Assembly: GCA_018241505.1 (NCBI GenBank)
Contig: JAFEDS010000016.1
Location: forward strand, 760,522-824,521
DNA from: Pseudomonadota bacterium
GTDB taxonomy: Bacteria; Pseudomonadota; Gammaproteobacteria; Steroidobacterales; Steroidobacteraceae
Direction of reading: 5' to 3'
DNA: 64,000 nucleotides
Part shown: positions 10,812-64,000 of the stretch, piece after piece
How positions within the stretch are numbered: the stretch's first letter is position 1
Layout: every line of letters begins with the position of its first letter
Notes under the pieces: generated by a model
Databases searched by the model: none
The model's input: the letters and a program-made list of their open reading frames with translations, nothing else
What the model was told of the DNA's origin: nothing
Made by a program: the position numbers and the translations under genes

Positions 10812-10877
10812 AGATTTCTGCCATTTTGGCCGCTAAAGCGTCAAAATCCTGGGTCAAGCTGGAGCAATTGGTAGCGA

Positions 10878-12236: not shown

Positions 12237-12321
12237 CGCGCAAGCGCCGGCCGGCCCAATATGCCACGGCGCATCTGGGCTCCCCCCGACCATTCCCTCC
12301 TAGGGATAGGACCGCGTCCAT

Positions 12322-12591: not shown

Positions 12592-12747
12592 GAACCTGCA
12601 ACCTCGTACTGGAACTGGGAACACCGCACGCAACGTCGACCCGGCTTTCAGCGAAAGCCGGGTAGGTAATGCATGCAATGGTCCGTACGAGGCGGTTCAT
12701 GGCTGGCTCAATATACCTGAATCAGGCGGATGCTGCCCCGCCCCCCT

Positions 12748-33205: not shown

Positions 33206-33285
33206 CCCGCCTTCCGCGGCGGGACTTGACCGGTCCTCGGGCCGCCAAGGATCATGGCGGCAAGCAAGGTCATGGAGGACCTCAA

Positions 33286-37970: not shown

Positions 37971-37980
37971 TCCTGTGACC

Positions 37981-39327: not shown

Positions 39328-39329
39328 AT

Positions 39330-44574: not shown

Positions 44575-45998
44575 GAGAGTTGCTCTTCGTCGAGAATCTG
44601 TTCCACGGAGGCCGGCGCGAACAACGGTGAGTGTTGCACGAAGCGCGTCCAGACAAACGCATACACCGCGGTCCCCGCCAACATCAAGCCGAACGGAATA
44701 TAGACAGCGCTGCGTCGGGTGCCTGATGGAGCGATGTATGCGAGCGCGACGACGATTCCCACCATGGATACAATTTGCGGCAGCGGGAACCAGCGCGCCC
44801 GGTAAGGCCGCGGCAAGTCCGGTCGCCGCAACCTCAGGGAGACCACAGACAAAGTTACGAGGATGTAGGCCACACCCCAGGCGCAGACCGCGGCGAGCAC
44901 CAGATTCGCGAGCCTGTCGAGGTCACCGTGAATCAGCCACGCATGGACACAGGGAATCGCGGCGGAAAATGCGATACCCACCAGCGGAGTCTTGAACCGC
45001 GGATGCAGGTATGCAAAGGCCTTGGGCAGGGCGCCATCGAGGGCCATTCCGTACAAGATACGAGGTAGGCCGGCCATCAGCGTATTGATAGTCGCAGCAC
45101 CCGCGAACAACAGGCCAATGCCGAGCCACACACGGCCTGCCGGTCCGAGGACCGCTTCCGCGAATTTCGGAATGGCCATGGGTGTGTCGAGGAGATGGGT
45201 AATGCCGGCGGCGTCCAACGGTAAGTTGGGTACCTGGCGGCGCATCGCCGTCCCAAAGATCAACATGCAGGTGGCTACAGCCCACAGCCCGAGTTGCATC
45301 GCCCGCGGAATCTGAGTTGCCGGTTTCCGCAGCTCCGTTGCCAGCGGAGTGACAAATTCGAAACCGACAAACATGAACATCGCCATGCCCACCAGCGACA
45401 ACACCGCTGTTGAGCCCGAGCCGATAGTCGAAGAGCCGAAAAGACTCGTCAGCGGCACCGCCGGTGCGTGCAGCAGCCCCAGGATGCCAAAGATCATCAA
45501 AGTGGACCACATGCCGACGGTCAGGACGATCTCGATCTTGCCGTAGACGCGGATACCGAGGGCGTTGGTAACTGCAAACACCATCACCATGCCGACTCCC
45601 ACCAGCCACGAGGTGCCGCTGCGCTCGAGAGCCGCATTCAGTGTGTCGAAGTTGACGAGCGCCATGATGCCGCTCAGCACTGTTTCTGCGGTTCCGGCAA
45701 AAACGTGCACGAGCAGGTAAGCGGAAATCGTCCCGGTAATCGCGCAGAAGCGTCCGAGCCCGCAGGAGATGTAGTCGTAGACGGAGCCGGTTGTCGGCAG
45801 GATGGAAGCTGCTTCCGCAAACGAAGTCGCCTGTGCCTGCATGACGACAAACGCGATGCACATGGCGGCTACAAACGTGCCACCTCCCATGCCAAAGCCA
45901 CTGGTCACTGTGAGAATGACCGGGCTGGCCATGATGAGGCCGACCGACGTGGCGAGCGCGGTTGGGAAACCGAGCGCGCCCTGAGCGATACGGCTCAC
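44523..45998 (-). CDS. APC-family amino acid/amine permease
   Basis: A 491-residue inner-membrane transporter with about 12-13 helices, starting ALGFPTALATSVGLIMASPV and with the TM6 region MFMFVGFEFVTPLATELRKP, which is typical of APC amino-acid/polyamine carriers. Its start overlaps the aminotransferase stop by 4 bp (ATGA), so import of an amine or amino acid and its deamination are probably coupled. It is the last gene of the minus-strand array. Confidence 0.9.
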   Translation of the reverse strand: MSRIAQGALGFPTALATSVGLIMASPVILTVTSGFGMGGGTFVAAMCIAFVVMQAQATSFAEAASILPTTGSVYDYISCGLGRFCAITGTISAYLLVHVFAGTAETVLSGIMALVNFDTLNAALERSGTSWLVGVGMVMVFAVTNALGIRVYGKIEIVLTVGMWSTLMIFGILGLLHAPAVPLTSLFGSSTIGSGSTAVLSLVGMAMFMFVGFEFVTPLATELRKPATQIPRAMQLGLWAVATCMLIFGTAMRRQVPNLPLDAAGITHLLDTPMAIPKFAEAVLGPAGRVWLGIGLLFAGAATINTLMAGLPRILYGMALDGALPKAFAYLHPRFKTPLVGIAFSAAIPCVHAWLIHGDLDRLANLVLAAVCAWGVAYILVTLSVVSLRLRRPDLPRPYRARWFPLPQIVSMVGIVVALAYIAPSGTRRSAVYIPFGLMLAGTAVYAFVWTRFVQHSPLFAPASVEQILDEEQLSQSVSAERTAVRASLGG

Positions 45999-47368
45999 AC
46001 TGTATCCAACACGCTCAGGAGGATCTCGAGCGCCGAGAACAGGTAGGCACGCGGAATCGTCAGGGACGGCATGAGCCGTAACACATTGCCATTGCGGCCA
46101 CAGGGAACCATGATCACGCCGCGCCGCAGGGACTCGACAACGATTCGTCCAATCTTCTCTGCCGCGAGGGGTGTGCGAGAATCCCTGTCCTCCACCAACT
46201 CGATCCCAATCATGAGCCCGCGGCCACGGACCTCACCAATGCGCGGATGGTTGCGGGCCCGCACCCGCTCCAGGGTCTCTTCGCCGAGCTGGCGGGCGCG
46301 GTCGAGAAGCTCGAGCTTTGGATCGCGTAGTAACGCGATATTGGTGAGACACACCGCCGCCGACAGCGCATTTGCAGCGAATGTCCCGGGTTGCGATCCC
46401 GGCGGGATCTGTCTTGCGAGATCGGTGCGCAGAGCGACCCCCGCCATCGGCAAGTCGCCGCCCATCCCCTTGCCGAACGTCAACATATCCGGCCGGACAC
46501 CGGAGTGCTCGACCGCCCACATCTTTCCAGTGCGGCCCGCGCCCGCTTGCACCTCGTCCACTACGAGAAGCGCACCGGACTCGTCGCAAGCCTTGCGCAA
46601 GAGCTGCAGAAACTCGGGAGCCGGCGCGACATAACCGCCCTCCCCCTGAACCGGCTCGACGATGACGGCAGCAACATCGTCTGCCCCCGTATAGCGCGTA
46701 TTCAGCAGGTAGTTGACGTACTCACCCGCGATTCGCTCGGCGCTCTTGGTTGTTGTGTCAAAGGGAAATCGATACGCGTAGGGATAGGGAGCGTGAATGA
46801 CTCCGGGCATGAACGGCCCGTAGCCTGAGCGATACTGATTGCCGGTGGTGAGCGCATTCGACGCGTTCCAAACGCCATGGTAAGCGCCGTGAAATGCCAG
46901 GATCTGCTGGCGGCCGGTGACCCTCTTGGCAAACTTGATTGCCGCTTCGAGCGCATCGCTGCCACTTTGGGTGAAGTAGCTGATGCAGTTGCCCCGAAGT
47001 CCCTCCGGCATGACCTCTGCCAGGGTCGCGGCAAGCTCCACGCGTTTCGAGTTGCTGATATCGGACGCGTGCATCAACCGTTGCGACTGTGCCTGGATCG
47101 CTTCGACAACTCGAGGATGGCAGCGACCAACGCTATTAACACCGACGCCCGCGGAGATATCAATGTAGAGATTGCCGTCGGGGTCTTTCACGGTGACGCC
47201 AAATCCCTGATCGAACACGAGTGGGAAGTCACCGCCGCCCCGTGCCATCGACTCGACATCGAGTGAGCGCCGCAGGGACTCCTGCGACCGGGGACCGGGG
47301 ACCGATGTCGTCACCATTCGCGGTGCGCCGGGGTAGGAAAGGGCTTCCAGCTCAGCTTCACTAATCAT
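45995..47368 (-). CDS. Class III (omega) aminotransferase
   Basis: A 457-residue PLP enzyme of the 4-aminobutyrate/omega-amino-acid aminotransferase type. The cofactor site shows SGSDALEAAIKFAKR (phosphate-binding), FHGAYHGVW, VVDEVQAGAGRTGKMWA (Asp to the pyridine N) and the Schiff-base Lys in DMLTFGKGMGGDLPMAG (about 280). The substrate amine is unknown; GABA, beta-amino acids or putrescine-like compounds are typical. The ATG at 47368 has GGTGG 8-9 bp upstream; a GTG four codons earlier is the alternative. It is coupled to the downstream permease. Confidence 0.92.
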   Translation of the reverse strand: MISEAELEALSYPGAPRMVTTSVPGPRSQESLRRSLDVESMARGGGDFPLVFDQGFGVTVKDPDGNLYIDISAGVGVNSVGRCHPRVVEAIQAQSQRLMHASDISNSKRVELAATLAEVMPEGLRGNCISYFTQSGSDALEAAIKFAKRVTGRQQILAFHGAYHGVWNASNALTTGNQYRSGYGPFMPGVIHAPYPYAYRFPFDTTTKSAERIAGEYVNYLLNTRYTGADDVAAVIVEPVQGEGGYVAPAPEFLQLLRKACDESGALLVVDEVQAGAGRTGKMWAVEHSGVRPDMLTFGKGMGGDLPMAGVALRTDLARQIPPGSQPGTFAANALSAAVCLTNIALLRDPKLELLDRARQLGEETLERVRARNHPRIGEVRGRGLMIGIELVEDRDSRTPLAAEKIGRIVVESLRRGVIMVPCGRNGNVLRLMPSLTIPRAYLFSALEILLSVLDTV

Positions 47369-47395
47369 TGTTTCGACCACCCGAAAGACCCGTGG

Positions 47396-47526: not shown

Positions 47527-49875
47527 TCAGAATGACCGCTTGATTTCCAGCCAGTATTCGCGCCCGCGCGCGTAGGTGGCCTGCGTGTAGCCAATGTTGG
47601 CCGCGTAGCGCTCCGCATTGCCCGCAATGATGTAGCGTTTATCCGTCAGATTGGTACCGCGGGCGCTCACCAGCCACTTCTTGTCGGCAGTGTTGAATGT
47701 CAACGAGCCGCCGAGGAGGAACAGATTCGGACGCTCCAACTCCGTTGAATTCAGGACGTCATTGAACAACTTCGAGGTGTAGCTGCCATCGACGCTGAGC
47801 GTCAGTTGATTGTTCTGCGGCAGATCCCAATGATGCGCCGCCGTCAGGTTGGCCGAGGTGTGGGGCGACTTGGCCAGGCGCGAGTGCAGTGTCAGGACGG
47901 GGGTGCCATCCAGGTTCAGGTCGGCCAGAGTCTCCGGAGTCAGCGACTTGTAACGGGTCGTCAGAAACCCCAGGCCGCCGCTGAAGTCCCAATGACGTTC
48001 CGGAGCGAATGCGAAATCCAGCTCGCCACCGATGATCTCGGCATTTCCCGCGTTGCGAGTGACGGGGCCGATGCCCTCGAAAATCGGTGTGATCTGCATA
48101 TCCTTGTAATTGGTATGGAACACATCGCCATTCAAGCGCAGCCGATTGCCGAGCCCCAGCCATTTCAGACCCAACTCTGCGACACCCACCGTCTCCGGCC
48201 GGAAACTGGGCGGCGCCGCCAGCGGCGACTGAGCGCTCGGGCCGATGCGCTGACTGAAACCACCTGATTTGAAACCTGTTGAGTACGACACGTAGCTCAT
48301 CAGGCCATCCGTGAGGTGATACTGCAGCGACACCGTGAAATCCACGTGACCGGTGGTCGTACTGTAATTGCCCGGGACCACCAGCGGCACCACCGGCGGC
48401 AGCCCCAGCCCCAATCCATTCGCGCTGCTCTGGAATGTTTGCGGAGCTCCCTCGTAGCCTGGGGAAAACTCTTTACGCTCGTTCGTGTAGCGCACACCCG
48501 CAGTTGCCCCGAGCTTCTCGGACAGATTCACGTTGGTCTGCGCAAAAGCCGACAGGTTGCGATCATCAACCGCTCCACCACTCAGCAGATTACCAATGGA
48601 GGTCGCCACGAGGTTACTGTCGAAGCCGGTTTCACCGAGGTAGTACACACCGGCGACATAGTTGCCCCAATTGTCAGGTAGCCTGCCGCTGAGCTGGAAT
48701 TCCTGCGACCACTGCTTGTCGAGGTAGTTGTCGTAGGTATCCGCGACCAGGAACGGCGAGGATAGGGAGTCGCGCGCGAAGTTGCTCGTCAGACGGCGAA
48801 ATGCGGTGATGCTCTTCAACTGAACGCCACCGAGGTCGTACGCCAGCGTCAGGGAGTTGCCCCAGATGTTGAAGTCCGACCGTGACGGACCGCCGTAGTA
48901 CGTCGAATCAGGGTCTTTGGATATGAACGTGCCGTTAAAGAGATCCGCGCTCGAGAACTGTCCAGCGAACTGCGGGCGCAGCGTCGAGCTAGTCCCCGGT
49001 ATCAAACCGGCGGCGGCGGGCAAAAACGGGGCTCCCGTAGTCGGAACAATCGTGAGCACTGACTGAGGCACCGACTGCTCGCGGCCGCGCGAGTAGTCCA
49101 TGATGTAGTCGACAGTAAACTCAGATGTCGGTGTCCACAACGCTCGTCCCCGTGCAACCACGCGATCGACGTTGCCGAGTTCCGGTGAATCCGGCTGCAG
49201 AATACGGCGCTGGTAGCCGTCCTCATTGAGTGCGGCGAAGCTGAGCGAGGTCAAAAGCGTATCGCTGATCGGGGCGTCCACTCGCGCTTTGACATTGTGA
49301 CGCGCAAAGTTTCCGGCTTCAAACTCGATCTCGCCTCCCCCTTGGGCCTGGGGCGGACGCGACGTTACGTTGAGCGCACCGCCGACAGTGTTCTTGCCGA
49401 ACAGAGTGCCCTGTGGACCGCGGAGGACCTCCACGCTCTGTATGTCGACCAGGTCCAGCAGGCTGCCCACCGAGCGTGCGAGATACACGCCATCAATGTA
49501 GACACCCACTCCAGGATCGGAATTGAGTGTGAAATCGGTCTGACCGATGCCGCGAATGAAAATGGTCGAGGCCACCGAAGAACCGGAGACCGCGGCCGTC
49601 GAATCGACAGTCAGGTTGGGCGTCAGGCGGGCGATGCCGGACAGGTTCTGAGCGCCATGAGCTTCAATGTCGTTGGCAGTCAGCGCCGTAATGGAAATGG
49701 GCACATCCTGCAGCTTCTCAGTGACTTTGCGGGCACTGACCGTAATTTCCTCGAGTACGGGGGCGCCGTCCTGCGCACCGGCGGTCTGCGCGCGAGCCGG
49801 TTGCGGCTGGGCCAGATACAGAACCAAGGTGGCTCCTGTTGCCAGTGCGCCACGGACAGCGGATGCGACGGTCAT
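47527..49875 (-). CDS. TonB-dependent receptor
   Basis: A 782-residue outer-membrane receptor with a signal peptide (ATGATLVLYLAQPQPARAQ), a TonB-box/plug start EEITVSARKVTEKLQDVPIS, plug motifs (about 60-190: TIFIRGIGQTDFTLNSDPGV, VEVLRGPQGTLFGKNTVGGA) and a barrel ending in REYWLEIKRSF. The VTEKLQDVPIS form is typical of receptors used for complex organics rather than siderophores. It lies inside the minus-strand catabolic array, 115 bp after the SDR gene, and probably brings the pathway substrate across the outer membrane. Confidence 0.92.
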   Translation of the reverse strand: MTVASAVRGALATGATLVLYLAQPQPARAQTAGAQDGAPVLEEITVSARKVTEKLQDVPISITALTANDIEAHGAQNLSGIARLTPNLTVDSTAAVSGSSVASTIFIRGIGQTDFTLNSDPGVGVYIDGVYLARSVGSLLDLVDIQSVEVLRGPQGTLFGKNTVGGALNVTSRPPQAQGGGEIEFEAGNFARHNVKARVDAPISDTLLTSLSFAALNEDGYQRRILQPDSPELGNVDRVVARGRALWTPTSEFTVDYIMDYSRGREQSVPQSVLTIVPTTGAPFLPAAAGLIPGTSSTLRPQFAGQFSSADLFNGTFISKDPDSTYYGGPSRSDFNIWGNSLTLAYDLGGVQLKSITAFRRLTSNFARDSLSSPFLVADTYDNYLDKQWSQEFQLSGRLPDNWGNYVAGVYYLGETGFDSNLVATSIGNLLSGGAVDDRNLSAFAQTNVNLSEKLGATAGVRYTNERKEFSPGYEGAPQTFQSSANGLGLGLPPVVPLVVPGNYSTTTGHVDFTVSLQYHLTDGLMSYVSYSTGFKSGGFSQRIGPSAQSPLAAPPSFRPETVGVAELGLKWLGLGNRLRLNGDVFHTNYKDMQITPIFEGIGPVTRNAGNAEIIGGELDFAFAPERHWDFSGGLGFLTTRYKSLTPETLADLNLDGTPVLTLHSRLAKSPHTSANLTAAHHWDLPQNNQLTLSVDGSYTSKLFNDVLNSTELERPNLFLLGGSLTFNTADKKWLVSARGTNLTDKRYIIAGNAERYAANIGYTQATYARGREYWLEIKRSF

Positions 49876-49990: not shown

Positions 49991-50794
49991 CTACAGCACA
50001 CTCGCCTGGCCTCCGGTGAGTTTGGCAATCGCCTGCCCCGCCTGTTCGGGCCCCATGGCCAGATACCCGCCCTCCACCTTGAGCTCTCCGCCGGTGATGA
50101 AGCTCGCCTGCTCTGAACACAGAAACAGCACTCCATCGGCAATTTCCTGTGCGCGCGCAAGCCGCCCGAGCAGATGGAACTCGGCCGCGACGCGATCCGC
50201 CTTGTGCCAATCCCCCTGCGACAAGGCCGCAATGGGATCGCTCTGCGTCCAGCCTGCGATCAGTGAGTTGACCCGGATGCCCTCCCGCGCATAGTCCATG
50301 GCCTGCAGCCGGGTCAATTGCAGAATGGCCGCCTTGGAGACCGGATAGGTCCAGCGGCCGGATTGCCCCACGTACGCGCTGATACTGGAGAGATTGACGA
50401 CCGCGCCCCGGTTCTTCGCCAGCTCACGGCTGGCAAGCTCAACCAGCCGCGCGCCACTGACCACGTTGGTTTCCAGAGTCGCGAGCCAGTCCTGCCGGCT
50501 CGAGCAACGTCCCTGGTCGAGATACGAGCAGGCATTGTTGACTATGAAGTCCAGCCGGCCAAAGGACTGCAGCGTTCTCGCGATCAGGCGCGACAGATCC
50601 TCATCGCGCGTGATATCAACCTGCTCATAGATGACTGTCGCACCGAGTCGCTCCGCAACCTGCTCGCCCTTCTCCCTGGAGCGCGCCGCCACAATGACAC
50701 GCGCACCGGCGGCGTGAAAAGCCTCAGTAATAGCCAGCCCGATACTGGCTGCACCGCCGGTGACGATGGCGACCTTGTCTTTGATGCCTGTCAT
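49991..50794 (-). CDS. SDR-family NAD(P)-dependent oxidoreductase
   Basis: A 267-residue classical short-chain dehydrogenase. The cofactor loop is TGGAASIGLA (about 12), the structural motif NNACSY replaces the usual NNAG, the catalytic Ser is in VNLSSISAYVG (about 140) and the Tyr/Lys pair in TYPVSKAAIL (about 155). An Asp at the beta-2 end is not obvious; Arg-Ser-Arg there suggests NADP(H). The ATG at 50794 has GGGAGA 7 bp upstream; the longer open frame is not SDR-like. It starts 19 bp after the phytoene-dehydrogenase-like gene, in the monooxygenase operon. Confidence 0.92.
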   Translation of the reverse strand: MTGIKDKVAIVTGGAASIGLAITEAFHAAGARVIVAARSREKGEQVAERLGATVIYEQVDITRDEDLSRLIARTLQSFGRLDFIVNNACSYLDQGRCSSRQDWLATLETNVVSGARLVELASRELAKNRGAVVNLSSISAYVGQSGRWTYPVSKAAILQLTRLQAMDYAREGIRVNSLIAGWTQSDPIAALSQGDWHKADRVAAEFHLLGRLARAQEIADGVLFLCSEQASFITGGELKVEGGYLAMGPEQAGQAIAKLTGGQASVL

Positions 50795-50813: not shown

Positions 50814-52391
50814 TCACGCGATCGCCTGCGCCGCGAGGAATCCGGACATGCCGCCGAGTCCGGGACCTGGATGTGTGGAGGCGCCGATATGAAAGAGGCG
50901 CTCGATGCAGGTCGCATGTCCACGAGCTGCAGATGATGGCCGCCACAACAGGAATTGATCGAGGTCACACGCGCCGGAGTACGGATCTCCTCCGACCAGG
51001 TTGATGTTGAGCCGTTCGAGATCGTGTGGCCCCAACACCCGACGGCCCACGATACTGCGGCGCAAGTTTGCGATTTGAGCGCACAAGCGCTCAACGATAC
51101 GGTCCGCGTAGGCTTCCGCCAAGGATGAGGTCCACAGCCCATCGGCCGGGCACTGCAGGCGCTGGCAGGCATCGCCCCGAATGTTGCGCGGCAGCTCCTG
51201 CAATTGAATCCACAGAATGCTGCGGCCACGCGGCGCGCGACTCGCATCGACGGCTACCGGCTGACAGACGACAATCGTGGCTTCGGCCGGCAGAAGGCCG
51301 CGTTCCGCCTCATTGACCGCGCGAGAAACGCCGTCCAGGCCGTCGGTCAGATGTAACATCGCAATCTTACCCAGCTCGGGAACCAACCACTGCGGCGGCT
51401 CGTCCAGGGCGAGGTGAATCTGCATCTCGGCCCGTCCGTAGCGATAGTTTTTCGCACTCTCGAGCAAATCCGGGCGCACTGGCGCCCGACTGAGCAAGCG
51501 GCCGTAAAGTTGCGTGGGTGTTGTGTTGCACACGACTGCCGTGCGTGCCGCAATCTCGCGGCCGTCAGCAAGACGCACCCCACGAGCTGATTTCTTGCTG
51601 ACGAGGACCGACTCAACGTCCGATTGCGTATGCAGCTCTCCGCCAGCATCACGGATTAGTTTCTCAAACGCTTGCACCAGCGTGAAACTGCCTCCAGCCA
51701 CCATCGGACTGCCGGCCTGCTCGAGTGTCAACATAATCAACCGACACATCAGACCTGAGAGTGCGCTCTCGGGTGACAAGCCCACATGCAGCACCCAGGG
51801 CGCGAACAGTGCACGGATCGTTTCCGAATGAAACGTGCGCTCCAGCCATGTTCGACAACTTCGCGTTCCATCGGCAAAGTAGGTCGAGAGGCCGTCGAGG
51901 CCTTCCCGCCAGACATGGTGGCCCAGAAGCCGCAAAGTTGCCGTACTGCGGGGCTCCCCTCCCAGCAGGCCGAAGGTGAGTGCGCTATCGCGTTGGATGC
52001 CCGCCATTGCCCGAGCAAACGCAGAGCCCGCGCCGGGCTCAATGGCATCGAGGGCTGCGATATTGCGTTCGCGATCGCGGTGGAATACGAGGTGGCTGCC
52101 ATCGGGTCTCAGTACACCCGTCGGGGTAGCGCTGTTCTCGAAGCGCACCCCGTAATGAGCCAGCGACTGCGCCAACTGTGCATAGTGTGGGGCTGTCACG
52201 AACAGCGGATATAGGGTGGAGAGCGTGTCGTGTTTGAATCCGGGAACGGTGAGCTCCTCGGTCCGAATACATCCGCCGAGCACCGAATTGCGCTCCAGAA
52301 TGCATACCCGCTGATTGCGGCGAGCCAGCATTGCTCCGCATACGAGAGAGTTGATACCGCTGCCCACAATGACCACGTCAAAAGCAGTCAT
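50814..52391 (-). CDS. Phytoene-dehydrogenase-like FAD oxidoreductase
   Basis: A 525-residue flavoprotein of the CrtI/COG1233 type. The N-terminal dinucleotide-binding motif VVIVGSGINSLVCGAMLARR and the following ERNSVLGGCIRTEE are characteristic, as is the C-terminal FAD segment LFHIGASTHPGPGLGGMSGF. Despite the family name, no other carotenoid genes are near, so oxidation or isomerisation of a pathway intermediate is more likely. It overlaps the flavin-reductase stop by 4 bp and precedes the SDR by 19 bp, so it belongs to that operon. Confidence 0.88.
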   Translation of the reverse strand: MTAFDVVIVGSGINSLVCGAMLARRNQRVCILERNSVLGGCIRTEELTVPGFKHDTLSTLYPLFVTAPHYAQLAQSLAHYGVRFENSATPTGVLRPDGSHLVFHRDRERNIAALDAIEPGAGSAFARAMAGIQRDSALTFGLLGGEPRSTATLRLLGHHVWREGLDGLSTYFADGTRSCRTWLERTFHSETIRALFAPWVLHVGLSPESALSGLMCRLIMLTLEQAGSPMVAGGSFTLVQAFEKLIRDAGGELHTQSDVESVLVSKKSARGVRLADGREIAARTAVVCNTTPTQLYGRLLSRAPVRPDLLESAKNYRYGRAEMQIHLALDEPPQWLVPELGKIAMLHLTDGLDGVSRAVNEAERGLLPAEATIVVCQPVAVDASRAPRGRSILWIQLQELPRNIRGDACQRLQCPADGLWTSSLAEAYADRIVERLCAQIANLRRSIVGRRVLGPHDLERLNINLVGGDPYSGACDLDQFLLWRPSSAARGHATCIERLFHIGASTHPGPGLGGMSGFLAAQAIA

Positions 52392-52879
52392 CGCACATCC
52401 AGGAGCGAGCAGTATTGACCGCGATGAAAGACCAGGGGCGCCGCGTCGTAGCGCTCGAGCTCCTTCACCTCCGCGATGAAGATGGTGTGATCACCGACCA
52501 CGTGCGAATCAGCGAGTTGACAGCGGAAGTGAGCGTGAGCCCCCGCAATCAGGGGAATGCCGGCACGCCACGCAAAGTCGATTGCCAGTCCCTCCTGGGG
52601 GCGCCCGGCAAAATGCCGGGAGATCCTCTCCTGGGTCACCGACAAGATACTCAGACCGAACTCCATGCCGCGCTCGAGCAGGTGTGCCATGCGCGCGTTA
52701 TTGTCGATGCAGATCAACACCAGCGGTGGATCCAGTGAGACGGACGTAAACGAGTTCGCGGTCATACCGTGCTGCGAGCCCTCGTACGAGGCCGTGACAA
52801 CAATGATACCGGTGGCGAAGGTACCGAGCGCATCGCGCAGATCGCGTTGGTTCAGCTTCTCCGTAACGGGCGCGTGCAC
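52388..52879 (-). CDS. Flavin reductase (StyB/HpaC family)
   Basis: A 163-residue NAD(P)H:flavin oxidoreductase of the DIM6/NTAB fold. The signature RDALGTFATGIIVVTA (about 12), GMTANSFTSVSLDPPLVLIC (about 36) and FFxGRP-like HFAGRPQEG (about 88) are present, and the C-terminal VVGDHTIFIAEV fits. It supplies reduced FAD to the monooxygenase encoded just upstream: its GTG start follows that stop codon with no gap, the layout of styAB. Confidence 0.93.
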   Translation of the reverse strand: MHAPVTEKLNQRDLRDALGTFATGIIVVTASYEGSQHGMTANSFTSVSLDPPLVLICIDNNARMAHLLERGMEFGLSILSVTQERISRHFAGRPQEGLAIDFAWRAGIPLIAGAHAHFRCQLADSHVVGDHTIFIAEVKELERYDAAPLVFHRGQYCSLLDVR

Positions 52880-54103
52880 TCAATGCTCCGCTGAGGCGAG
52901 AAACTCTTCAGCCGCCTGCGGATCACTAAAACGGGGAAAGAAGCGGCGCGGATCATCAAACGCGTTGGTGAACCAGGATGCGATATCGGGGCGGTTCGCA
53001 GCGGCGCCCAGCAGCGCTGCAACATGCGCCGGGGGCGGCCGCAGCATCGCATTGGTCCATTGCGTGACAAAACGCGCGTAGCTCCAGTATTCCTCGAACG
53101 TCTGCTCCATCCAGTTACCATCAAATACTTCGTGGCCGTGGCGGAGAATCCGCTCCAGGTAGGCGGCCGCGCATTTGCTGGCGTTGTTTGAGCCTTGCCC
53201 GGTGATGGGATCGTTCAGACACACGACATCCGCCATGCCGAGCACGAGAGCACCGGAGGGTAAGCGCGCAATCGGCCGTCTCACGGTCGGGGCGAATCGT
53301 CCGCTGAGAATCCCCTTCGGGTCCGTCAATTGCACATTTCGGGCGCGCTCGAGCTCCCACGGAACGAATGTCGATAGAATCCCGAGCGAGGCATTCAGGT
53401 GTTGCTCGGGACTGGTCACGCCGGTCCAACAATCCATCGGCCCCCCCGGCACCCCTTCAAACACCATGATTTCGCAGGGGCCCGTGACAGTGAGCGCAGG
53501 GAACACGAAATATTCCCCTACCCCGGGAATGACATTGAAACACACCGCTGAATGGTCGGGACGTGGCCGCAGACCGTGCACGTAGGTGAGGCCCAGGGCC
53601 CGCATGGGGCGATCAAACTCCGAACGGGCCGCATCGCGCGCAAAGATATTGGCGATGGCACCCTTACCGGCAGCCACGACCACCAGAGCACACTCCCGGG
53701 TGAGCGCCTCCAGGTCATCGAGCTTCGCCTCCACCAACCGCACCTCGCCGCCCAGCTCCTGCAGTTGCTCCAGCAGAACGGGCATCTTTACACGTTGGTC
53801 GACGGACATAGCGGCTGAATCCAGGCGCGCCGACCAACGGACTGCGCGCGCACCGTCCGGACCGACGATGGCGAACTCAATGCCATCGACCGTGGGACAT
53901 GTCTGGTTCCATTGATTGATACCCACCTCGCGTTCCAGGCGTAGAGCCGTACTGAACATGCACTGACTCGAGGTCACCCGCCCGTCACGGATCTGCTGCG
54001 GTGTCTGGGCAGAGAGCAGTACGACCTCATAGCCTGCCTTGCGCAGCCCGATGGCCAATTGCAACCCGGATTGGCCCGCTCCCACGATTCCGATCTTTCG
54101 CAT
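52880..54103 (-). CDS. StyA-like (styrene/indole monooxygenase) flavoprotein
   Basis: A 407-residue FAD monooxygenase, close in length to StyA (about 415). The N-terminal FAD motif GIVGAGQSGLQLAIGLRKAG, RVTSSQCMFSTALRLERE (about 43) and the C-terminal DPITGQGSNNASKCAAAYLE are typical of the StyA/indole monooxygenase group of two-component group E enzymes, which epoxidise styrene or indole side chains. The adjacent flavin reductase supports this. The closest substrate cannot be told from motifs. It opens the tight StyA-StyB-like-oxidoreductase-SDR unit. Confidence 0.88.
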   Translation of the reverse strand: MRKIGIVGAGQSGLQLAIGLRKAGYEVVLLSAQTPQQIRDGRVTSSQCMFSTALRLEREVGINQWNQTCPTVDGIEFAIVGPDGARAVRWSARLDSAAMSVDQRVKMPVLLEQLQELGGEVRLVEAKLDDLEALTRECALVVVAAGKGAIANIFARDAARSEFDRPMRALGLTYVHGLRPRPDHSAVCFNVIPGVGEYFVFPALTVTGPCEIMVFEGVPGGPMDCWTGVTSPEQHLNASLGILSTFVPWELERARNVQLTDPKGILSGRFAPTVRRPIARLPSGALVLGMADVVCLNDPITGQGSNNASKCAAAYLERILRHGHEVFDGNWMEQTFEEYWSYARFVTQWTNAMLRPPPAHVAALLGAAANRPDIASWFTNAFDDPRRFFPRFSDPQAAEEFLASAEH

Positions 54104-54214: not shown

Positions 54215-55672
54215 TCAGGCCAAACGGCGGTTGATGTCGCGCAGACCCCGGTACGCGCTTTTGTAGAGCTCCAGGGCTTCTGCGTAGCGATCCGCGTGGC
54301 GCGGGTCAGGAGAAAAGCTCACCTCCGCCCGGGTCATGCTCCGGATCGCCGCCGAGAGGTCGGAATAGACTCCCGTGCCCACGGCGGCAATGATGGCGGC
54401 GCCAAGAACGCCTGCGTCGAGGTATGCGGCGCGTTGCAGCTCGACTCCGAGGACATCCGCCCGTATCTGACACCACAGATCGGACTGAGCCCCACCACCA
54501 GCCAAAAACAGCCGGCTGTAGTCGTGCGATGCGGCCTTCACAGCTTCATCGAACAGCAACTTGGCCGACAGGGCCACCCCTTCCAGCACCCCCAAGGAGA
54601 AGTCGGCGGCGCCCATGCTGCCTGTCAAGCCAAGAAAGGCGCCACGGCTGTTGCTATCCCACAGCGGTGCGCGCTCGCCCTGCAAATGCGGCAAAAAGAG
54701 CACTCGCGCCCTGGCCCGATCGACACCGGCGGCAAGGGCAAGCAGCGCTTCGATGGGACGGCCCAAAATATCCGCGAACCAGCGCAAGGAGTCGGCTCCA
54801 CTCTGGGTCGGGCCCGCGTGCACGTGCCAACCGTTGACAGGCATGAAGCTGACGATGCCGGGTGTGTTCATACGCCGGTCTGAGCACAAGATGACGATTT
54901 CGCTGGTGCCGCTCAGATATGCCCCCTCGCCGGGCCCTGCCACACCGGTGCCGAACATGCTGGCCCACCCGTCCATCGTCCCGGTCATCATCGGCGTGCG
55001 CGCGTTTGTCAAACTCTGTCGCGTGTAGGTACCGGCGGTGGCAGTGAGCTCCAGCAACGGAGGCAAGCGTTCGTGCGCGCCGTGGACCTGGTCGATCAGA
55101 TCCGCAATGTAAAGGCCTTTCAGATCAACCAGGTCGAAACAGCTCAGCGCATCACTGACCCGCTGACCGGTCAGGTGCAACAGGCAGTAGTCCTTGGGCG
55201 TCAGAACACAGGCGACCCGGCGCCAGAGATCCGGATGTTGCTCGGCCAGCCATGCCATGCGGCTGATCGTATGGCTTGCGGCAATATGCACGTCCGACCC
55301 CCACCAGCGGCGCCGCTGCTCATCGGTTAGCTGCGCATCCAGCCGACGGGCCTGGGGGTCACATCGCGTATCCTGCCAGGTGATAGCGGGAAACACCGGC
55401 TTACCTTCGGCATCGACAAAAGCGTGAGTATTTGTCTGGCCGCACAGACAGATTCCCGCGATGGCTGCCGGCGGCACCGAGTCGCAGACGTACTGCAGAA
55501 TTTGTTGAGTCGCCTGCAACCAGTCATCCGGATTCTGGATCACTTCCGTGGCCGAATGACGCGTTGTCGGATAGGTCACCCGCCTTTCACGGATACACAC
55601 ACCGCCCGAATCAAACAGCGCGCCCTTGACCGCGGTCGTGCCGATATCGACTCCCACAATGTATTCAGGCAT
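54215..55672 (-). CDS. FGGY-family carbohydrate kinase (xylulokinase-like)
   Basis: A 485-residue ATP-dependent sugar/polyol kinase. The N-lobe begins YIVGVDIGTTAVKGALFDSG; GICLCGQTNTHAFVDAEGKP and AITWQDTRCDPQA form the substrate side, and LFLAGGGAQSDLWCQIRADV (about 395) is the C-lobe ATP motif. Substrates in the family include xylulose, ribulose, glycerol and erythritol; this one is not predictable. The start overlaps the TrpA-like gene by 8 bp, which links phosphorylation to that lyase. Confidence 0.9.
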   Translation of the reverse strand: MPEYIVGVDIGTTAVKGALFDSGGVCIRERRVTYPTTRHSATEVIQNPDDWLQATQQILQYVCDSVPPAAIAGICLCGQTNTHAFVDAEGKPVFPAITWQDTRCDPQARRLDAQLTDEQRRRWWGSDVHIAASHTISRMAWLAEQHPDLWRRVACVLTPKDYCLLHLTGQRVSDALSCFDLVDLKGLYIADLIDQVHGAHERLPPLLELTATAGTYTRQSLTNARTPMMTGTMDGWASMFGTGVAGPGEGAYLSGTSEIVILCSDRRMNTPGIVSFMPVNGWHVHAGPTQSGADSLRWFADILGRPIEALLALAAGVDRARARVLFLPHLQGERAPLWDSNSRGAFLGLTGSMGAADFSLGVLEGVALSAKLLFDEAVKAASHDYSRLFLAGGGAQSDLWCQIRADVLGVELQRAAYLDAGVLGAAIIAAVGTGVYSDLSAAIRSMTRAEVSFSPDPRHADRYAEALELYKSAYRGLRDINRRLA

Positions 55673-56435
55673 CGATCGCCGCTCTCACATCACGAACAAA
55701 GGCGCGTATCGCCCGCTCTCCCTCGATCGCCTTGCGGACACACACGGACCCGATGATTACACCATCGGCCCCCAATTCGATGGCGGCGCGGGCCTGCCCG
55801 GGCGTACTGATACCGAATCCGAGCAGGATGCGCTGCTGGACGCCCGCGTCCCGAAGTCGTTGGATCCGCTCAGCATTCGTGGGATCCAGATCTGCGCGGG
55901 GCCCGGTGAGTCCATCGGTGGCTTGCAGCATCACGTAGGAGTCGCACCGCCGGGCGCGTTCAATATCCCGTTCACTGAAATGCTTCGGAACAAATGCAAC
56001 ACGGCGTGTACCCGGCGGCAGCGCAATTCCCGGAATGCCGGCATCGAGACCCAGGATCAGCGTTGCATCCACAAACTCGAACGTCTCGGAGGAGCTGTGC
56101 GCAAGGACCGCGGAATCCGCATACGTCATGCAAACAGTCCCGATCTGCGGAGCGCGGGCACGCACGGCACGGCTCATCTCCCTGAAGCGAACCGGAATGT
56201 CGGTCCCCGACTGCATGGCGCGAGCCATCGAGTCGGCAATGTCGGGGCCATCGAGACGCGGGTCTCCGCTCGGCATCCCGAGCTCCAGAATGTTGACACC
56301 GCCCTCCGCGTACGCATCCAGCAGATAGCTTCCCACGAGGGGATCGCCGATCGGCAGATAACAAGTCAGCAAAGGGCCAGGCCGCCTCAACACACTGACC
56401 AGGGAGTTCGGCGGGACAGAAGGTTGCTCCGACAT
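55665..56435 (-). CDS. Orphan tryptophan-synthase-alpha-like lyase
   Basis: A 256-residue TIM-barrel protein of the TrpA family. The catalytic residues of TrpA appear kept: Glu in GGVNILELGMPSGDP (Glu49 equivalent) and Asp in PRLDGPDIADSMARAM (Asp60). The phosphate-binding loops LLGFGISTPGQAR and DGVIIGSVCVRKAI are also present, as are Tyr in SYVMLQATDG and Thr-Gly in LTGPRAD. TrpA cleaves indole-3-glycerol phosphate to indole and glyceraldehyde 3-phosphate. No trpB, trpC or trpF is near, so it is not biosynthetic here; it probably splits a related phosphorylated substrate. It overlaps the kinase gene by 8 bp. Confidence 0.88.
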   Translation of the reverse strand: MSEQPSVPPNSLVSVLRRPGPLLTCYLPIGDPLVGSYLLDAYAEGGVNILELGMPSGDPRLDGPDIADSMARAMQSGTDIPVRFREMSRAVRARAPQIGTVCMTYADSAVLAHSSSETFEFVDATLILGLDAGIPGIALPPGTRRVAFVPKHFSERDIERARRCDSYVMLQATDGLTGPRADLDPTNAERIQRLRDAGVQQRILLGFGISTPGQARAAIELGADGVIIGSVCVRKAIEGERAIRAFVRDVRAAIDA

Positions 56436-56567
56436 GATGGGCGCTCACAGACGCGACGCGGGTCGCACGACTGGGAGCGATCTTGTCGGCGCAATCGGTC
56501 CCGCGAAATCCAGCGGCTGCCGGAAGTATCCGAGGAATGCACAACTGCGCGATAAATACCGGAAAGC

Positions 56568-57770
56568 TCAACTTCTGCCGGCAATCGCGCTGCCCGCGGG
56601 CGCGTTTCGCGTCAGCGCTCGCAACAAGATCAGCAACGCGAGCAACATCAATGGATAGATAATGGAATAGCGATATAGCACCGCAATGGATAGAGCATCG
56701 CGCAGTGCGCCAATCGCGTAGGAACCAATTCCGACACCCAGCATCATGCCGGCGGTCAGCATCGAGGCAATCCAGGAAACCTCGTGGGGGAAGGGAGCCG
56801 CGGCAGTGCCCACGAGCAAGGGGAAGAAACCGGAACACGCGAGCCCGGCGAAAGCGAAGCCGAGCAGCGCGCTGGAGTACGTTTGTATGTTCGAGACGCC
56901 GACAAACGCGGCGGTAATCAGCAGCGGCAGGATAGTGATCAGAACCATGGGTTTGAAGTGCAGTACCGCCAGCGATGTGAGCAACCGGCCGAACGTCAGC
57001 GCACCCCAAAAACAGGTCAACACCCAAAGTGCCGCCTGCGGAAGCTGCTTTTCTTCACTCACGTACAGAATGGCCCAGTTGGAAAACATGCCTTCGGCGA
57101 TGGAATAGAGCACCGCCATCAACAGGGCCGTCCAGAAAAAGGCGCTGCGGCCCGGCGCCGGCCACAATGACGGATTTCCGAAAGTGGGCGCGGCAGGCAG
57201 CCGCGCGCCGGCGCTGAAGGCGAACAGGAGCAGCGCCACGGCGCACAGTCCCACCGGAGCCAACAACCAGTGCTGCCAGGCTGTCAGTGTCGCAATGACA
57301 AATGGACCGAGGGTCAGGCCGGCACCGGCGGTCATGTGCAGAGCCACAATGGCCGTGTTCGCCCGGCGCGGAAACAGCAGCGGCAGAAACGCATTCAAAG
57401 GCCCGCCGCCGAAGCCAAATGCAAATCCGAAGCAACCGGTGGCGCCCATCAACACGGGCAAAGTGAAGTTGGCCGGGACGGTCGAGCTGAGCGCCAGCAG
57501 AGCCTGTGACAGCGCGAAAAAGATCAGGGCGATGAGATACATGGCGCGCAGCCCGATGCGTTGAACGGCAGCACCGCCGAGCAGCGCGCCGGCAATGGAA
57601 GTCATGAGCTGCGACAGGTAGATCGAACCGTAAGCCAGGTCGGAAATCCCCCGGCTCTCACGCAAATACGCACTGCTGCCCGGGAAACTGACGAGAGTCA
57701 GACCCAGCAGCAAGGCGCCGGCATAAACACTGATGGCGGGAAAAAGAGGTGATTCGCCTGCTTGCCTCAT
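56568..57770 (-). CDS. MFS transporter
   Basis: A 400-residue inner-membrane carrier with about 12 helices. The N-terminal SVYAGALLLGLTLVSFPGSS and the mid-protein loop between helices 6 and 7 fit a sugar- or metabolite-type MFS protein; no drug-specific motif is seen. The ATG at 57770 (MRQAGESP) is chosen because the open frame before it is polar and unlike a transporter start. It lies between the AraC regulator and the TrpA-like/kinase pair, so it probably imports the compound they act on. Confidence 0.85.
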   Translation of the reverse strand: MRQAGESPLFPAISVYAGALLLGLTLVSFPGSSAYLRESRGISDLAYGSIYLSQLMTSIAGALLGGAAVQRIGLRAMYLIALIFFALSQALLALSSTVPANFTLPVLMGATGCFGFAFGFGGGPLNAFLPLLFPRRANTAIVALHMTAGAGLTLGPFVIATLTAWQHWLLAPVGLCAVALLLFAFSAGARLPAAPTFGNPSLWPAPGRSAFFWTALLMAVLYSIAEGMFSNWAILYVSEEKQLPQAALWVLTCFWGALTFGRLLTSLAVLHFKPMVLITILPLLITAAFVGVSNIQTYSSALLGFAFAGLACSGFFPLLVGTAAAPFPHEVSWIASMLTAGMMLGVGIGSYAIGALRDALSIAVLYRYSIIYPLMLLALLILLRALTRNAPAGSAIAGRS

Positions 57771-57869
57771 CAGCAGATGATGCTGAGGCGAGCGGGGTCC
57801 GTATATCCGAGAACTGCAGCGCTCGTCCGGAAAGTGCAACCTCAGCGCGTCATCCGGCCCGCGTCGCTG

Positions 57870-58850
57870 TCAGCAGTGTGCCTTGAGGGTTTCCGAGGGT
57901 CTTTCGCCGAAGCGGCGATAATAATCCCGCGAGAAGTGCCCCAGGTGATAGAAACCCCAGCGGCACGCGATGCTGGCAACCGTATCCGCGGGCTCGGGCC
58001 GCACGAGATTGTCGCGAGCCGCCTGCAAGCGCAAGGCGCGATAATGCGCAATGGGAGACAGGCCCTTGTGTTTACGGTACGCGGCAAACAAGGTCCGCTC
58101 CGGTACCCCGGCCGCCGTGGCAATCTCGGCGATCCCTACCTCGTTGCTCAGGTTGGCCCGAATGAACGCCTCGGCCCGTAACAGATAGCGCGGCCCGGGA
58201 TTGGTGACCTGCGCCTCCAAAGCCTCTGTGTAGTTGTGCCGCTGCGTGGTCAGCAGCCCCATCGCCACCGCCCGCTCCATTTGGGCGCACCACAGCGGTG
58301 TGTGCCTCATGGCGTCGTGCCGGTCCAACTCCAACACAAGAAAGTCGACCAGGGCGCGCAAGCTCGCGCGCGCCCCGAATGAATAGTCAAATTCCGGCTC
58401 AAAACGCAACGGCTCGGTGATCGTGCACTCGAGGGTATCCGCAAGGTGGCGTTCGAGTACGGCGCGCGGCACTTTGACCGCCATGAGGGCGGTATCACAT
58501 GACCACTTGGTTTGCAGGGTCAGGCCCGGAGAAACGACACAGCCGAGTCCTTCGCCGCTGGTAAATTCGCGGGAGCCGACACGATAGGAACAGTGACCGC
58601 TGAGGGGCAAGTCCAACAGGAAGAAATCCGGCAGCTCACTCGCACAGACGGTGATTTCCATTCCGTACGTCAGGTAGTGAAGCGAGAGCGTGGAGAGTGT
58701 GACCTCGTGATGGCGAGCCGCGATCTTGGGCTGCCAATGCTCGGTGTGAACCCGATGCCGGCAATAGGCACGCGTCATGGCATCGCGTACGACCTCGATG
58801 CTGTCGGTCTCGAGCGTCACGAAGTTCGACAGTGGGTGAGCGGCTTTCAT
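57870..58850 (-). CDS. AraC-family regulator of the catabolic array
   Basis: A 326-residue regulator with an AraC_binding_2-like N-domain (about 10-190: SELPDFFLLDLPLSGHCSYR and GEGLGCVVSPGLTLQTKWSC) and a C-terminal HTH (about 225-322: AAGVPERTLFAAYRKHKGLS, CRWGFYHLGHFSRDYYRRFG). The ATG at 58850 is the first ATG; a TTG 31 codons upstream would add a poorly conserved start. It lies 99 bp upstream of the MFS gene on the same strand, so it is the natural candidate activator for the kinase-lyase segment. Confidence 0.9.
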   Translation of the reverse strand: MKAAHPLSNFVTLETDSIEVVRDAMTRAYCRHRVHTEHWQPKIAARHHEVTLSTLSLHYLTYGMEITVCASELPDFFLLDLPLSGHCSYRVGSREFTSGEGLGCVVSPGLTLQTKWSCDTALMAVKVPRAVLERHLADTLECTITEPLRFEPEFDYSFGARASLRALVDFLVLELDRHDAMRHTPLWCAQMERAVAMGLLTTQRHNYTEALEAQVTNPGPRYLLRAEAFIRANLSNEVGIAEIATAAGVPERTLFAAYRKHKGLSPIAHYRALRLQAARDNLVRPEPADTVASIACRWGFYHLGHFSRDYYRRFGERPSETLKAHC

Positions 58851-58987
58851 CAACGGCTTTGGGCAGTCTCGATCGCGCGTGACCTGCAAGGCCAAGTATG
58901 GGCTTTGAGCCCGGATGGTAAGCCGAGCCACCCTGAAGCTCAAGTGACGCAGCCAGGTTACCGGTAAGGGGGACGGACAGCGCTATC

Positions 58988-62367: not shown

Positions 62368-63357
62368 TTATCGCGTGGGAGGATCCATTTCCTTTGCTGC
62401 CCGCGCCCTACTCCTTTCCAGCATTTCCTTAGCAAGCAATTCCCTTTCCGTCCTGGGCACCGGCATTCTCGACTCGAATGCGCGAACAGCATCCGAGAGT
62501 TCGCGGTCGCCCTGGGCTTCGAGCATCACGCCAAGGCGGCGCCATCCTTCACGGACCTCCGCCCGAGTTCTCAACAGCACGCCCCTCCCTTTCTCCATTT
62601 TCAGACCGCCGGTGCGCAACTCCCCGCCAACCTGCGCGTGCCTTTGCTCCATGTGGGTGGAATCCCCACGACGATTCGCCCGGTAGATCGCATCGCGTTT
62701 GCGGGATCGGGATTCACCCCGGACCGCACGTTCGGTCGCGTTCGCAGTGACGCCGAGCTCCCTGAGGTTCTCGGCAAACTGTGCGCGCCATGAACGGAGT
62801 GTCGCCTTGCGGATGTTCAGTCGCTCACCCCGCTCACCCATTGCCTTCAGTACCACGTGCACATGCGGGTGCCTCTCGTCTGTGTGCAGGACCATTGCGT
62901 AGCGATGCTTGAGTGCCCATTCGTTCGCGGCCAGCTTCTTCACGGCCTTCAACACTGCGCCCGGTGATGTTCCAGGTGGCATTGAGAAAATCAGGTTGTG
63001 AACGAGCTTCACCGGCTTGCGCCTCAGATCGGGAGAAGGAGATCGTAAATCCTGCGCCTCAAGGTCGAGATCCCAATCGCTGATAACTTGCTTCTCAAAC
63101 CCTTTTCCATCGACGCGCACGCCGGAATCCATCTCCACCCCTAAGTCGCCATCACGCCCAACGTACGCCATGTGCAGCCCGACTCCCGTCGTCGTCCTCG
63201 CGCCGCCGGATACTTTGACCATGACCTCCGGTGCGCGATGGACGGTCAAGGCGATGTGCAAGCGCTTGGTCGGGGTTATGACGCGGGAAGGACTTCCATA
63301 GGCCTTGAGGTCGAGCAGTGGCTCTTCGTCAAGTCGTAGATCAACGATTCTTCTCAT
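62368..63357 (-). CDS. Relaxase / mobilization nuclease
   Basis: A 329-residue relaxase. The metal-binding three-His motif is clear: HTDERHPHVHVVLKAMGERG (about 158-177, HxDxxHxHVH). VHNLIFSMPPGTSPGAVLKA upstream is the common region before it, and YGSPSRVITPTKRLHIALTV may include the nucleophile Tyr near the start. It nicks DNA at oriT and covalently leads the transferred strand. The short length, without a primase or helicase domain, fits mobilisable elements that borrow a conjugation machine. It overlaps mobC by 17 bp. Confidence 0.88.
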   Translation of the reverse strand: MRRIVDLRLDEEPLLDLKAYGSPSRVITPTKRLHIALTVHRAPEVMVKVSGGARTTTGVGLHMAYVGRDGDLGVEMDSGVRVDGKGFEKQVISDWDLDLEAQDLRSPSPDLRRKPVKLVHNLIFSMPPGTSPGAVLKAVKKLAANEWALKHRYAMVLHTDERHPHVHVVLKAMGERGERLNIRKATLRSWRAQFAENLRELGVTANATERAVRGESRSRKRDAIYRANRRGDSTHMEQRHAQVGGELRTGGLKMEKGRGVLLRTRAEVREGWRRLGVMLEAQGDRELSDAVRAFESRMPVPRTERELLAKEMLERSRARAAKEMDPPTR

Positions 63358-63889
63358 GGCCGAGATTCCAGCCCGTCAGGTTGGCGACAATCACCGCTTT
63401 GAACGAGTCGCGGAGGGCGGCGAGTGCACGCATTACCGCCCGCAAGTCGCCGATATTCGGCCCATGGGGATGCTCGCCACGGTTCAGGGCGTGCGCGATT
63501 TGATTCATGTTCCGTCCGATTGCTCCCAGCTCAGCAATGCTTGCCTTCAGGACCGCTAGCTCGTTTGGGAGCAACGGCGCAAGAGATCGAAGGTGCGACC
63601 GAATCAGGAATGACACATAGGTTGCTGTGGGAACGCAGCGAGCATCGGCACGCTCCCGAAGTAACAGCAGGTCGTCCGGATTCAGCCGCACAGATATTTT
63701 TCCTGTGGCCGCCGCTCGTTCAACAGGTTCGATCACATCTAACTGGACGACTTCGGAAGCTATCAGAGCGGCGTTGACCAGGCGTTTCAACAGCGCGGAC
63801 TCAGTGAGACCTTGTTGGTGTGCGAGCGCCGCGAACTGCGCTTTCCTTGCGGCGGTGACCCGAGCTGAGATGAGTGAGACAGCGACCAT
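63341..63889 (-). CDS. mobC: MobC-like relaxosome accessory protein
   Basis: A 182-residue protein with a ribbon-helix-helix-like section (ISVRLNPDDLLLLRERADAR, about 72-91) and the MobC hallmark GAIGRNMNQIAHALNRGEHP (about 132-151). It helps the relaxase bind and open oriT. The first ATG is at 63889; a TTG six codons upstream is the alternative. It is followed directly by the relaxase gene, the usual mobC-relaxase order. Confidence 0.88.
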   Translation of the reverse strand: MVAVSLISARVTAARKAQFAALAHQQGLTESALLKRLVNAALIASEVVQLDVIEPVERAAATGKISVRLNPDDLLLLRERADARCVPTATYVSFLIRSHLRSLAPLLPNELAVLKASIAELGAIGRNMNQIAHALNRGEHPHGPNIGDLRAVMRALAALRDSFKAVIVANLTGWNLGHEKNR

Positions 63890-64000
63890 GGAGTTAGTGT
63901 CATACAATCGACGCCGGTTGGCTATCCTGCAAACAAAGGAATTTGCCTCTCGTTTTCAACACGGCGTCGCCGCCGCTGTCGTTTCCCTCTAACCATGGGA
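63890..64000. other. oriT: Candidate oriT with RP4-like nic sequence
   Basis: CTATCCTGC at 63922-63930 on the plus strand matches the YATCCTG|Y nic consensus of RP4/R64-type relaxases. It lies 33 bp upstream of the mobC start, where oriT usually sits. Nicking after the G (63929) would send DNA rightwards first and the mob genes last, which is the normal polarity. GCCGGTTGGC just before it could form a short stem. Only one side is visible, so the extent is approximate. Confidence 0.55.

Follow-up and report, generated by a model that had tools for sequence, protein, structure and literature searches.

A TrpA-like lyase gene overlapping an FGGY kinase gene stands ahead of an indole monooxygenase cassette, suggesting a possible route for freeing and degrading indole

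In a 64,000-nucleotide stretch of DNA from a member of the Steroidobacteraceae (assembly GCA_018241505.1, contig JAFEDS010000016.1, positions 760,522 to 824,521; hereafter the window), a gene for a TrpA-like putative stand-alone lyase overlaps a gene for an FGGY-family kinase by 8 bp, follows a gene for a major facilitator superfamily (MFS) transporter, and lies ahead of an indole monooxygenase cassette. An earlier note had reported the transporter, lyase, and kinase genes at 54215-57770, all on the minus strand, together with the 8 bp overlap; the open reading frames (ORFs; 55665-56435 for the lyase and 54215-55672 for the kinase) and Pfam domains bear out all of this. The earlier note ended at the kinase gene and did not include the adjoining cassette. 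We found that the trio is the front part of a longer same-strand series of genes, which continues 111 bp past the kinase gene into the cassette. This arrangement points, without proof, to an undescribed route by which indole is released from a larger molecule and then degraded. The reading that we favor, tentatively and as a possibility rather than a probability, is that the gene set frees indole from an indolic polyol and then degrades it. We are more doubtful of its full biochemical form, a phosphorylative salvage of indole in which a dedicated FGGY kinase and a TrpA-derived lyase that works without TrpB would send triose phosphate to glycolysis and indole to anthranilate. The interpretation given in the earlier note is partly supported, and the gene set is a new combination of known parts.

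The lyase (256 aa) scores above the Pfam Trp_syntA cut-off (96.5 bits against 27) and below that of the NCBIfam trpA equivalog TIGR00262 (84.9 bits against 102.35). As the earlier note had read from the sequence, it retains the catalytic Glu and Asp (E51 and D62, corresponding to TrpA Glu49 and Asp60) and the phosphate loops (G206-F207-G208 and G229-S230); T177 is also retained. We aligned the lyase with 60 ordinary TrpAs, namely that of its own genome, those of two near-relative loci and 19 loci from the phylum, L025, L027, and those of 36 of the 79 loci retrieved with a DNA pattern for the motif E-x-G-x-P-x-G-D-P-x-x-D-G-P. Locus L119 was left out because it contains the query itself, and the remaining pattern loci were unmatched or failed the length filter; a neighboring TrpB was observed in only three of the 60 rows, those of the own genome, L025, and L027. 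Residues E51, D62, T177, F207, and G229 of the lyase match all 60 TrpAs (Glu51, Asp62, Thr183, Phe212, and Gly233 in the numbering of the own TrpA). The search pattern fixes E51 and D62 in 36 of the 60 rows, and both hold in the remaining 24 as well.

At L61, D107, S115, G129, and M169, the lyase differs from residues that are invariant in the 60 ordinary TrpAs. The column of TrpA Asn104 is Asp in the lyase and Asn in 60/60 TrpAs, and the column of Asp130 is Gly in the lyase and Asp in 60/60. In the cited passages of a study of tryptophan synthase, Asn104 is described as lying at the interface of TrpA with TrpB and Asp130 as close to that interface, with a hydrogen bond between the two (PMC8187860). 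Overall, the lyase departs at 9 of the 33 columns that are conserved at the level of at least 95%, whereas ordinary TrpAs examined by leave-one-out depart at no more than 4 (mean 0.47); the pattern that supplied 36 of the rows fixes 9 positions, 8 of which are among these 33 columns. The changes at Ala59, Asn104, Gly110, Asp130, and Tyr175 hold both in the full set of rows and in the 24 rows obtained without the pattern, and it is likely that the lyase has lost its TrpB contacts. Compared with TrpA, the protein has the same fold, catalytic acids, and phosphate site, but it has no adjoining trpB and its TrpB-contact residues are altered. Its structure was modeled with a predicted local distance difference test (pLDDT) score of 84.6, and each of the 50 fold matches that are listed, from a total of 1,941, is a TrpA (the reconstructed LBCATS among them) or BX1.

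The monooxygenase gene (52880-54103, minus strand) begins 111 bp downstream of the kinase gene on the same strand, and its product belongs to the styrene/indole monooxygenase family (IifC/StyA-like; Smoa_sbd, 145.9 bits). Its best solved relatives are 7z4x (554.2 bits), which we take to be the Acinetobacter indole monooxygenase AbIMO, 7z97, and 7zca (554-548 bits for the three), and 9lrq (509.5 bits); 9j0h (200.6 bits) and the styrene monooxygenase 3ihm (142.2 bits) are weaker matches. Three more minus-strand genes follow with gaps of 0, -4, and 19 bp. According to Pfam and NCBIfam matches, they encode an IifD/StyB-like flavin reductase (52388-52879) and a FAD-dependent oxidoreductase that is CrtO/CrtI-like but under the NCBIfam cut-offs (50814-52391), and, from Pfam, an IifB-like short-chain dehydrogenase (SDR; 49991-50794, with a start codon picked by eye within a longer ORF). 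The window thus contains the monooxygenase, flavin reductase, and SDR that define an iif-type cassette. Within the 7.9 Mb of the genome, only one match to such a monooxygenase is present at E <= 1e-90, and a chance adjacency of this gene and the lyase-kinase pair is therefore unlikely.

According to the favored reading, the MFS carrier would import an indole that bears glycerol or another polyol as its side chain, indole-3-glycerol being the simplest case, and the kinase would phosphorylate the terminal hydroxyl of this compound. The TrpA-like protein, free of TrpB like maize BX1, would then carry out a retro-aldol cleavage to indole and glyceraldehyde 3-phosphate. The triose phosphate half would pass to glycolysis, and the monooxygenase and flavin reductase, with the SDR and the FAD oxidoreductase, would oxidize indole toward anthranilate. 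A cyclase encoded elsewhere in the genome, on contig C28, could aid this oxidation, and a hydroxylase/oxidoreductase-type protein encoded beside it would take anthranilate onward. We infer co-transcription, the stand-alone activity of the lyase, the indolic substrate, the substrate of the kinase, and the direction of transport from this arrangement. The 8 bp overlap ties the kinase to the lyase, and the position of the pair in front of the one close indole monooxygenase gene of the genome ties the pair to indole. A phosphorylated retro-aldol substrate fits because the catalytic acids and the phosphate site are intact, and a lyase that works alone fits because the TrpB contacts are changed.

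Indole sets of the iif and ipo-dho types are known from Acinetobacter, Burkholderia, Pseudomonas, and Providencia, and the passages cited report or propose that they convert indole to anthranilate (PMC4577076, PMC12538310, PMC9871250); the Providencia set is described there as a catechol pathway (PMC12538310, PMC9871250). In Acinetobacter, the regulator IifR has AraC_binding_2 and HTH_18 domains, and IifC is not expressed without it, according to the cited passage (PMC4577076). As these sets are described in the passages cited, the window resembles them in having an indole monooxygenase, a flavin reductase, an SDR, and an AraC-family regulator of the same domains (57870-58943, minus strand, Pfam), and differs from them in having the MFS, TrpA-like lyase, and FGGY kinase genes in front. 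It differs also in that the cyclase with the iifA-type role is not part of the cluster: a homology search found no cyclase/IifA partner in the window, and a homologue lies on another contig.

Among 398 sampled genomes of the phylum, 11 (this one included) have such a monooxygenase at E <= 1e-90, and the ten others hold 11 copies that are 52-62% identical to that of the window. We inspected 11 indole-monooxygenase loci, comprising the surroundings in these ten genomes and one Azospirillum plasmid. All 11 have an SDR 46-50% identical to that of the window and a flavin-reductase match (28-42%), which is weakest in L125 and L127, where it lies beyond the SDR. An AraC match (tblastn, 27-33%) is present in 9 of the 11, in two cases 6-9 kb from the monooxygenase gene. 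A homologue of the window's FAD oxidoreductase (46-52%) occurs in 3/11, and those three also have a cyclase-family gene. One locus, L124, carries a tandem pair of indole monooxygenase genes (9259-11659) whose products are 62% and 56% identical to that of the window.

The genome has three matches to the Azospirillum cyclase, and the best of them (63% identical) is the one on C28. This cyclase adjoins a protein of the PRK08255 bifunctional salicylyl-CoA 5-hydroxylase/oxidoreductase type (1261.6 bits, cut-off 1078) and a protein that resembles indolepyruvate oxidoreductase alpha but is under the cut-off (286.9 against 650.9 bits). In the C28 locus (L145, 2396-7725), the cyclase gene lies beside the indolepyruvate-oxidoreductase-like gene and is divergent from the salicylyl-CoA 5-hydroxylase/oxidoreductase-type gene. 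Salicylyl-CoA 5-hydroxylase/oxidoreductase is closely related to 2-aminobenzoyl-CoA monooxygenase/reductase, and the C28 cyclase locus is possibly a locus for anthranilate degradation.

The closest precedent for the proposed lyase is BX1, the indole-3-glycerol phosphate lyase of grasses (1tjr, 1rd5), which has the TrpA fold, the same catalytic Glu and Asp, and no TrpB partner. BX1 is described in the cited text as a stand-alone enzyme of secondary metabolism (PMC12930369). It is the second-best solved sequence match of the lyase (76.7 bits), with 31% identity over 211 aligned positions, and was aligned as the stretch given in that match; the lyase differs from it in being bacterial and in having a gene that overlaps a kinase gene. 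BX1 departs from ordinary TrpAs at 4 of the 33 near-invariant columns, and all four are among the nine at which the lyase departs (hypergeometric p 0.003, with columns that are not independent). The shared columns are Ala59 (Ile in BX1, Leu in the lyase), column 67 in BX1 numbering (Ser in BX1, the lyase, and the own TrpA), Asn104 (Lys in BX1, Asp in the lyase), and Gly110 (Ser in both). When only the 24 rows obtained without the pattern were used, the lyase departed at 12 of 33 columns conserved at the 100% level and BX1 at 4 of 33, and all four were again shared (p 0.012). Tyr26 was also considered as a BX1-like trait and was dropped, as it is Tyr in 45 of the 60 ordinary TrpAs.

The earlier note had stated that no trpB, trpC, or trpF lies nearby. 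This holds for trpB, since a tblastn search of the window with the TrpB of this genome gave nothing at E <= 1, and for trpC, since the only IGPS-family (trpC) matches of the genome are on contig C16; trpF was not the subject of a separate search. The only other TrpA-family match in the genome is also on C16, with trpB directly before trpA, and this ordinary TrpA is 21% identical to the lyase. It is itself divergent, and the position that follows the catalytic Asp-Gly, a near-invariant Pro in TrpAs, is Val (ADGV; L001, 1462-2235). A tryptophanase model found no match in the genome, whereas 4 of 14 control genomes were matched.

The kinase (485 aa; FGGY_N, 121.6 bits; FGGY_C, 107.3 bits) is nearest to XylB among the NCBIfam models but falls under all 12 cut-offs listed, including that of the XylB equivalog TIGR01312 (259.9 bits against 380.25). 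Like the xylulokinase-like members of the family (XylB and relatives on Rhizobium plasmids), it has both FGGY domains. Four relatives with 41-45% identity are known here (E <= 1e-75), two on Rhizobium plasmids and two among 397 other genomes of the phylum; the ribose-type ABC transporter genes read by eye beside three of them suggest that kinases of this group use a sugar or polyol. The three relatives that were aligned (from L137, L140, and L141) have an N-T/S-H segment in common with the kinase of the window and possibly form an uncharacterized kinase subfamily with it. The fourth locus, L136 (Rhizobium grahamii plasmid, 12001-13436), was used for searching only, without an ORF reading, and was kept out of the alignments; its kinase match is in two pieces and looks frame-broken, and the near-identical site in L137 is in one piece. 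The MFS transporter (56568-57770; MFS_1, 61.1 bits) is a putative importer whose ORF (56568-57839) opens at a TTG at 57839 and has its first ATG at 57770. It was not assigned to a subfamily because its sole NCBIfam match, at 27.5 bits, is well under the cut-off of 407.75.

A number of observations weigh against the favored reading, among them the rarity of the lyase and of the pair. Our surveys, whose genome samples overlap, turned up neither a close lyase nor a lyase-kinase pair in 98 near relatives (two matches, 29-30%), 216 other members of the family, 368 other genomes of the class, 397 other genomes of the phylum, plasmids, or phages, nor in two scans of the genome_contigs collection. The phylum genomes gave 31 lyase matches (E <= 1e-17) at 31-37%, which is the level of ordinary TrpAs only. 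Among plasmids there were 60 matching records, all below 60%, and none of the 30 that are listed exceeds 35%; among phages there were 5, at 26-29% only. An 8-mer scan of genome_contigs returned 58 stretches, none of which was confirmed as a relative of the lyase. Of the 79 stretches retrieved from the same collection with the motif pattern, mostly from Eremiobacterota, Coriobacteriia, and other actinobacteria, 41 match the lyase (tblastn, E <= 1e-8; best identity 35%), and none has a kinase match within loci that hold 8 kb or less. The motif was rejected as a signature of the lyase, because what it retrieves seems to be ordinary TrpAs that have Gly at this position; the same pattern had no match in viral_contigs. 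Homologues that are divergent and differ in the motif residues may have gone undetected.

The earlier note had proposed to look for conserved kinase-TrpA-like neighbors in other genomes, and none came to light in the genomes, plasmids, and phages searched (metagenomes were not searched), an outcome that the note itself had named as counting against its reading. Neither lyase nor kinase is present in any of the 11 indole-monooxygenase loci (E <= 1e-10), and no TrpA-like gene is present at any of the four kinase-relative loci. Conservation, the usual proof of paired function, is lacking here. No such gene set is described in the titles or abstract openings of the literature matches listed, among which subscription journals are thinly covered.

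The residues of the lyase supply further points on this side. TrpA Tyr175 (Tyr170 in BX1), listed among the active-site residues in the cited passage (PMC12930369), is Tyr in 60/60 ordinary TrpAs and Met in the lyase, whereas BX1 retains it. BX1 also retains an Asp (Asp125; TrpA Asp130) where the lyase has Gly, and the BX1 loop-6 residues Val174 and Asn175 (given in the cited passage of PMC11574760) are Thr and Asp in the lyase according to the alignment. Among the longer segments of the structure model, residues 101-150 have the lowest confidence (block pLDDT 55-75). Because of the Met at Tyr175 and the low confidence of residues 101-150, the aromatic that is bound may not be plain indole; with the loop-6 difference added, the evidence is better for the phosphate end of the substrate than for its aromatic end. 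The likeness to BX1 is itself sensitive to the rows used: with the 24 non-pattern rows and the 95% level, the lyase departs at 13 of 39 columns and BX1 at 6 of 39, with 4 shared (p 0.08), and leave-one-out counting in this set gives 8 departures for the genome's own ordinary TrpA. Weakened by this control, a specific likeness of the lyase to BX1 is only suggested. The scheme of carrier, kinase, and retro-aldol lyase put forward in the earlier note is partly supported, with the gene overlap, the intact catalytic and phosphate sites, and the adjacent indole cassette on its side, and the unconserved pair and the altered indole pocket against it.

These points bear on two main rivals. One of them, which we consider rather unlikely, is that the substrate is not indolic: an imported sugar or polyol would be phosphorylated and cleaved to triose phosphate and a carbonyl compound, and the indole cassette would be adjacent by accident. 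The loss of Tyr175 and Asp130 from a protein that retains its catalytic acids and phosphate site speaks for such a route, and the kinase relatives in L137, L140, and L141 adjoin ribose-type (sugar-type) ABC transporter genes, as read by eye, in place of the lyase gene with which the kinase gene of the window is paired. The pair is also flanked by gaps of 132 bp and 111 bp, which make a separate transcript for it possible. Scans for promoters (2 promoter-like sites, shuffled mean 3.4) and terminators (13 terminator-like sites, shuffled mean 11.3) gave no clear signal on the extent of the transcript. Against an accidental neighborhood, the next gene encodes an enzyme that oxidizes indole, which is the product released by TrpA-fold lyases, and the genome has only one such gene at E <= 1e-90; the fold matches listed likewise include nothing other than TrpA and BX1. 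The other main rival, unlikely in our judgment, is a bacterial analogue of BX1 that uses indole-3-glycerol phosphate made by the cell for biosynthesis: the indole released would be oxidized, the MFS protein would export the product, and the kinase would serve some other step. Indole-3-glycerol phosphate should be available, because the genome holds IGPS-family and trpBA genes, and both the departures shared with BX1 at Ala59, Asn104, and Gly110 and the precedent of BX1 in secondary metabolism fit this explanation. It leaves the kinase without a role despite the overlap of its gene with the lyase gene, however, and the downstream genes resemble a degradation cassette; the C28 cyclase and CoA-type hydroxylase also point to degradation.

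It is improbable that the lyase is a drifting duplicate of trpA, with residual or no activity, that has been retained by chance beside catabolic genes. No terminal branch of the tree is longer than that of the lyase (2.41, even with the midpoint root on that branch, against a median of 0.30), a length that makes its placement uninformative, and the searches above turned up no relative elsewhere. The frame is open, however, and the G+C content at third codon positions (0.69) is within the range of the neighboring genes; moreover, catalytic and phosphate residues that are intact at a mean identity to ordinary TrpAs of about 28% are not the pattern of neutral decay.

If the favored reading is correct, the next-to-last step of tryptophan biosynthesis has been recruited for catabolism, providing a new entry route into bacterial indole catabolism and an independent bacterial counterpart of plant BX1. 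Indolic polyols would then be a natural carbon source, and the protein would be a natural bacterial stand-alone indole-releasing lyase to set beside maize BX1, which is the model for freeing TrpA from TrpB. Combined with the monooxygenase, the lyase could provide a color-forming (indigo) reporter of the lyase reaction.

Beyond the SDR gene, three minus-strand genes whose membership of the unit is uncertain encode a TonB-dependent receptor (47527-49875), a class III aminotransferase (45995-47380), and an amino-acid permease (APC; 44523-45998), the last two with a 4 bp overlap. From the AraC gene to the APC gene, the intergenic gaps are 99, 132, -8, 111, 0, -4, 19, 115, 146, and -4 bp. A second same-strand set at 36834-41723 (peptidase S58, amino-acid permease, and a gene that by eye is a TonB receptor), with an AraC regulator on the opposite strand (41872-42939), looks suited to taking up and hydrolyzing a peptide or a beta-amino compound. 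G+C content is even over the genes of the window, and the 824-kb contig also carries genes that by eye are lon, clpX, and tig; contamination thus seems unlikely. A MobA/VirD2-like relaxase gene at 62368-63907, at the contig end (Pfam Relaxase, 44.3 bits), with a small upstream gene that is MobC-like by eye, possibly marks a mobile element a few kilobases from the gene set, and an IS3-type transposase-like ORF was read by eye at 33226-34158. Across contigs C1 to C42 of the genome there are 18 Ring_hydroxyl_A match rows, and the organism may be a broad degrader of aromatic compounds.

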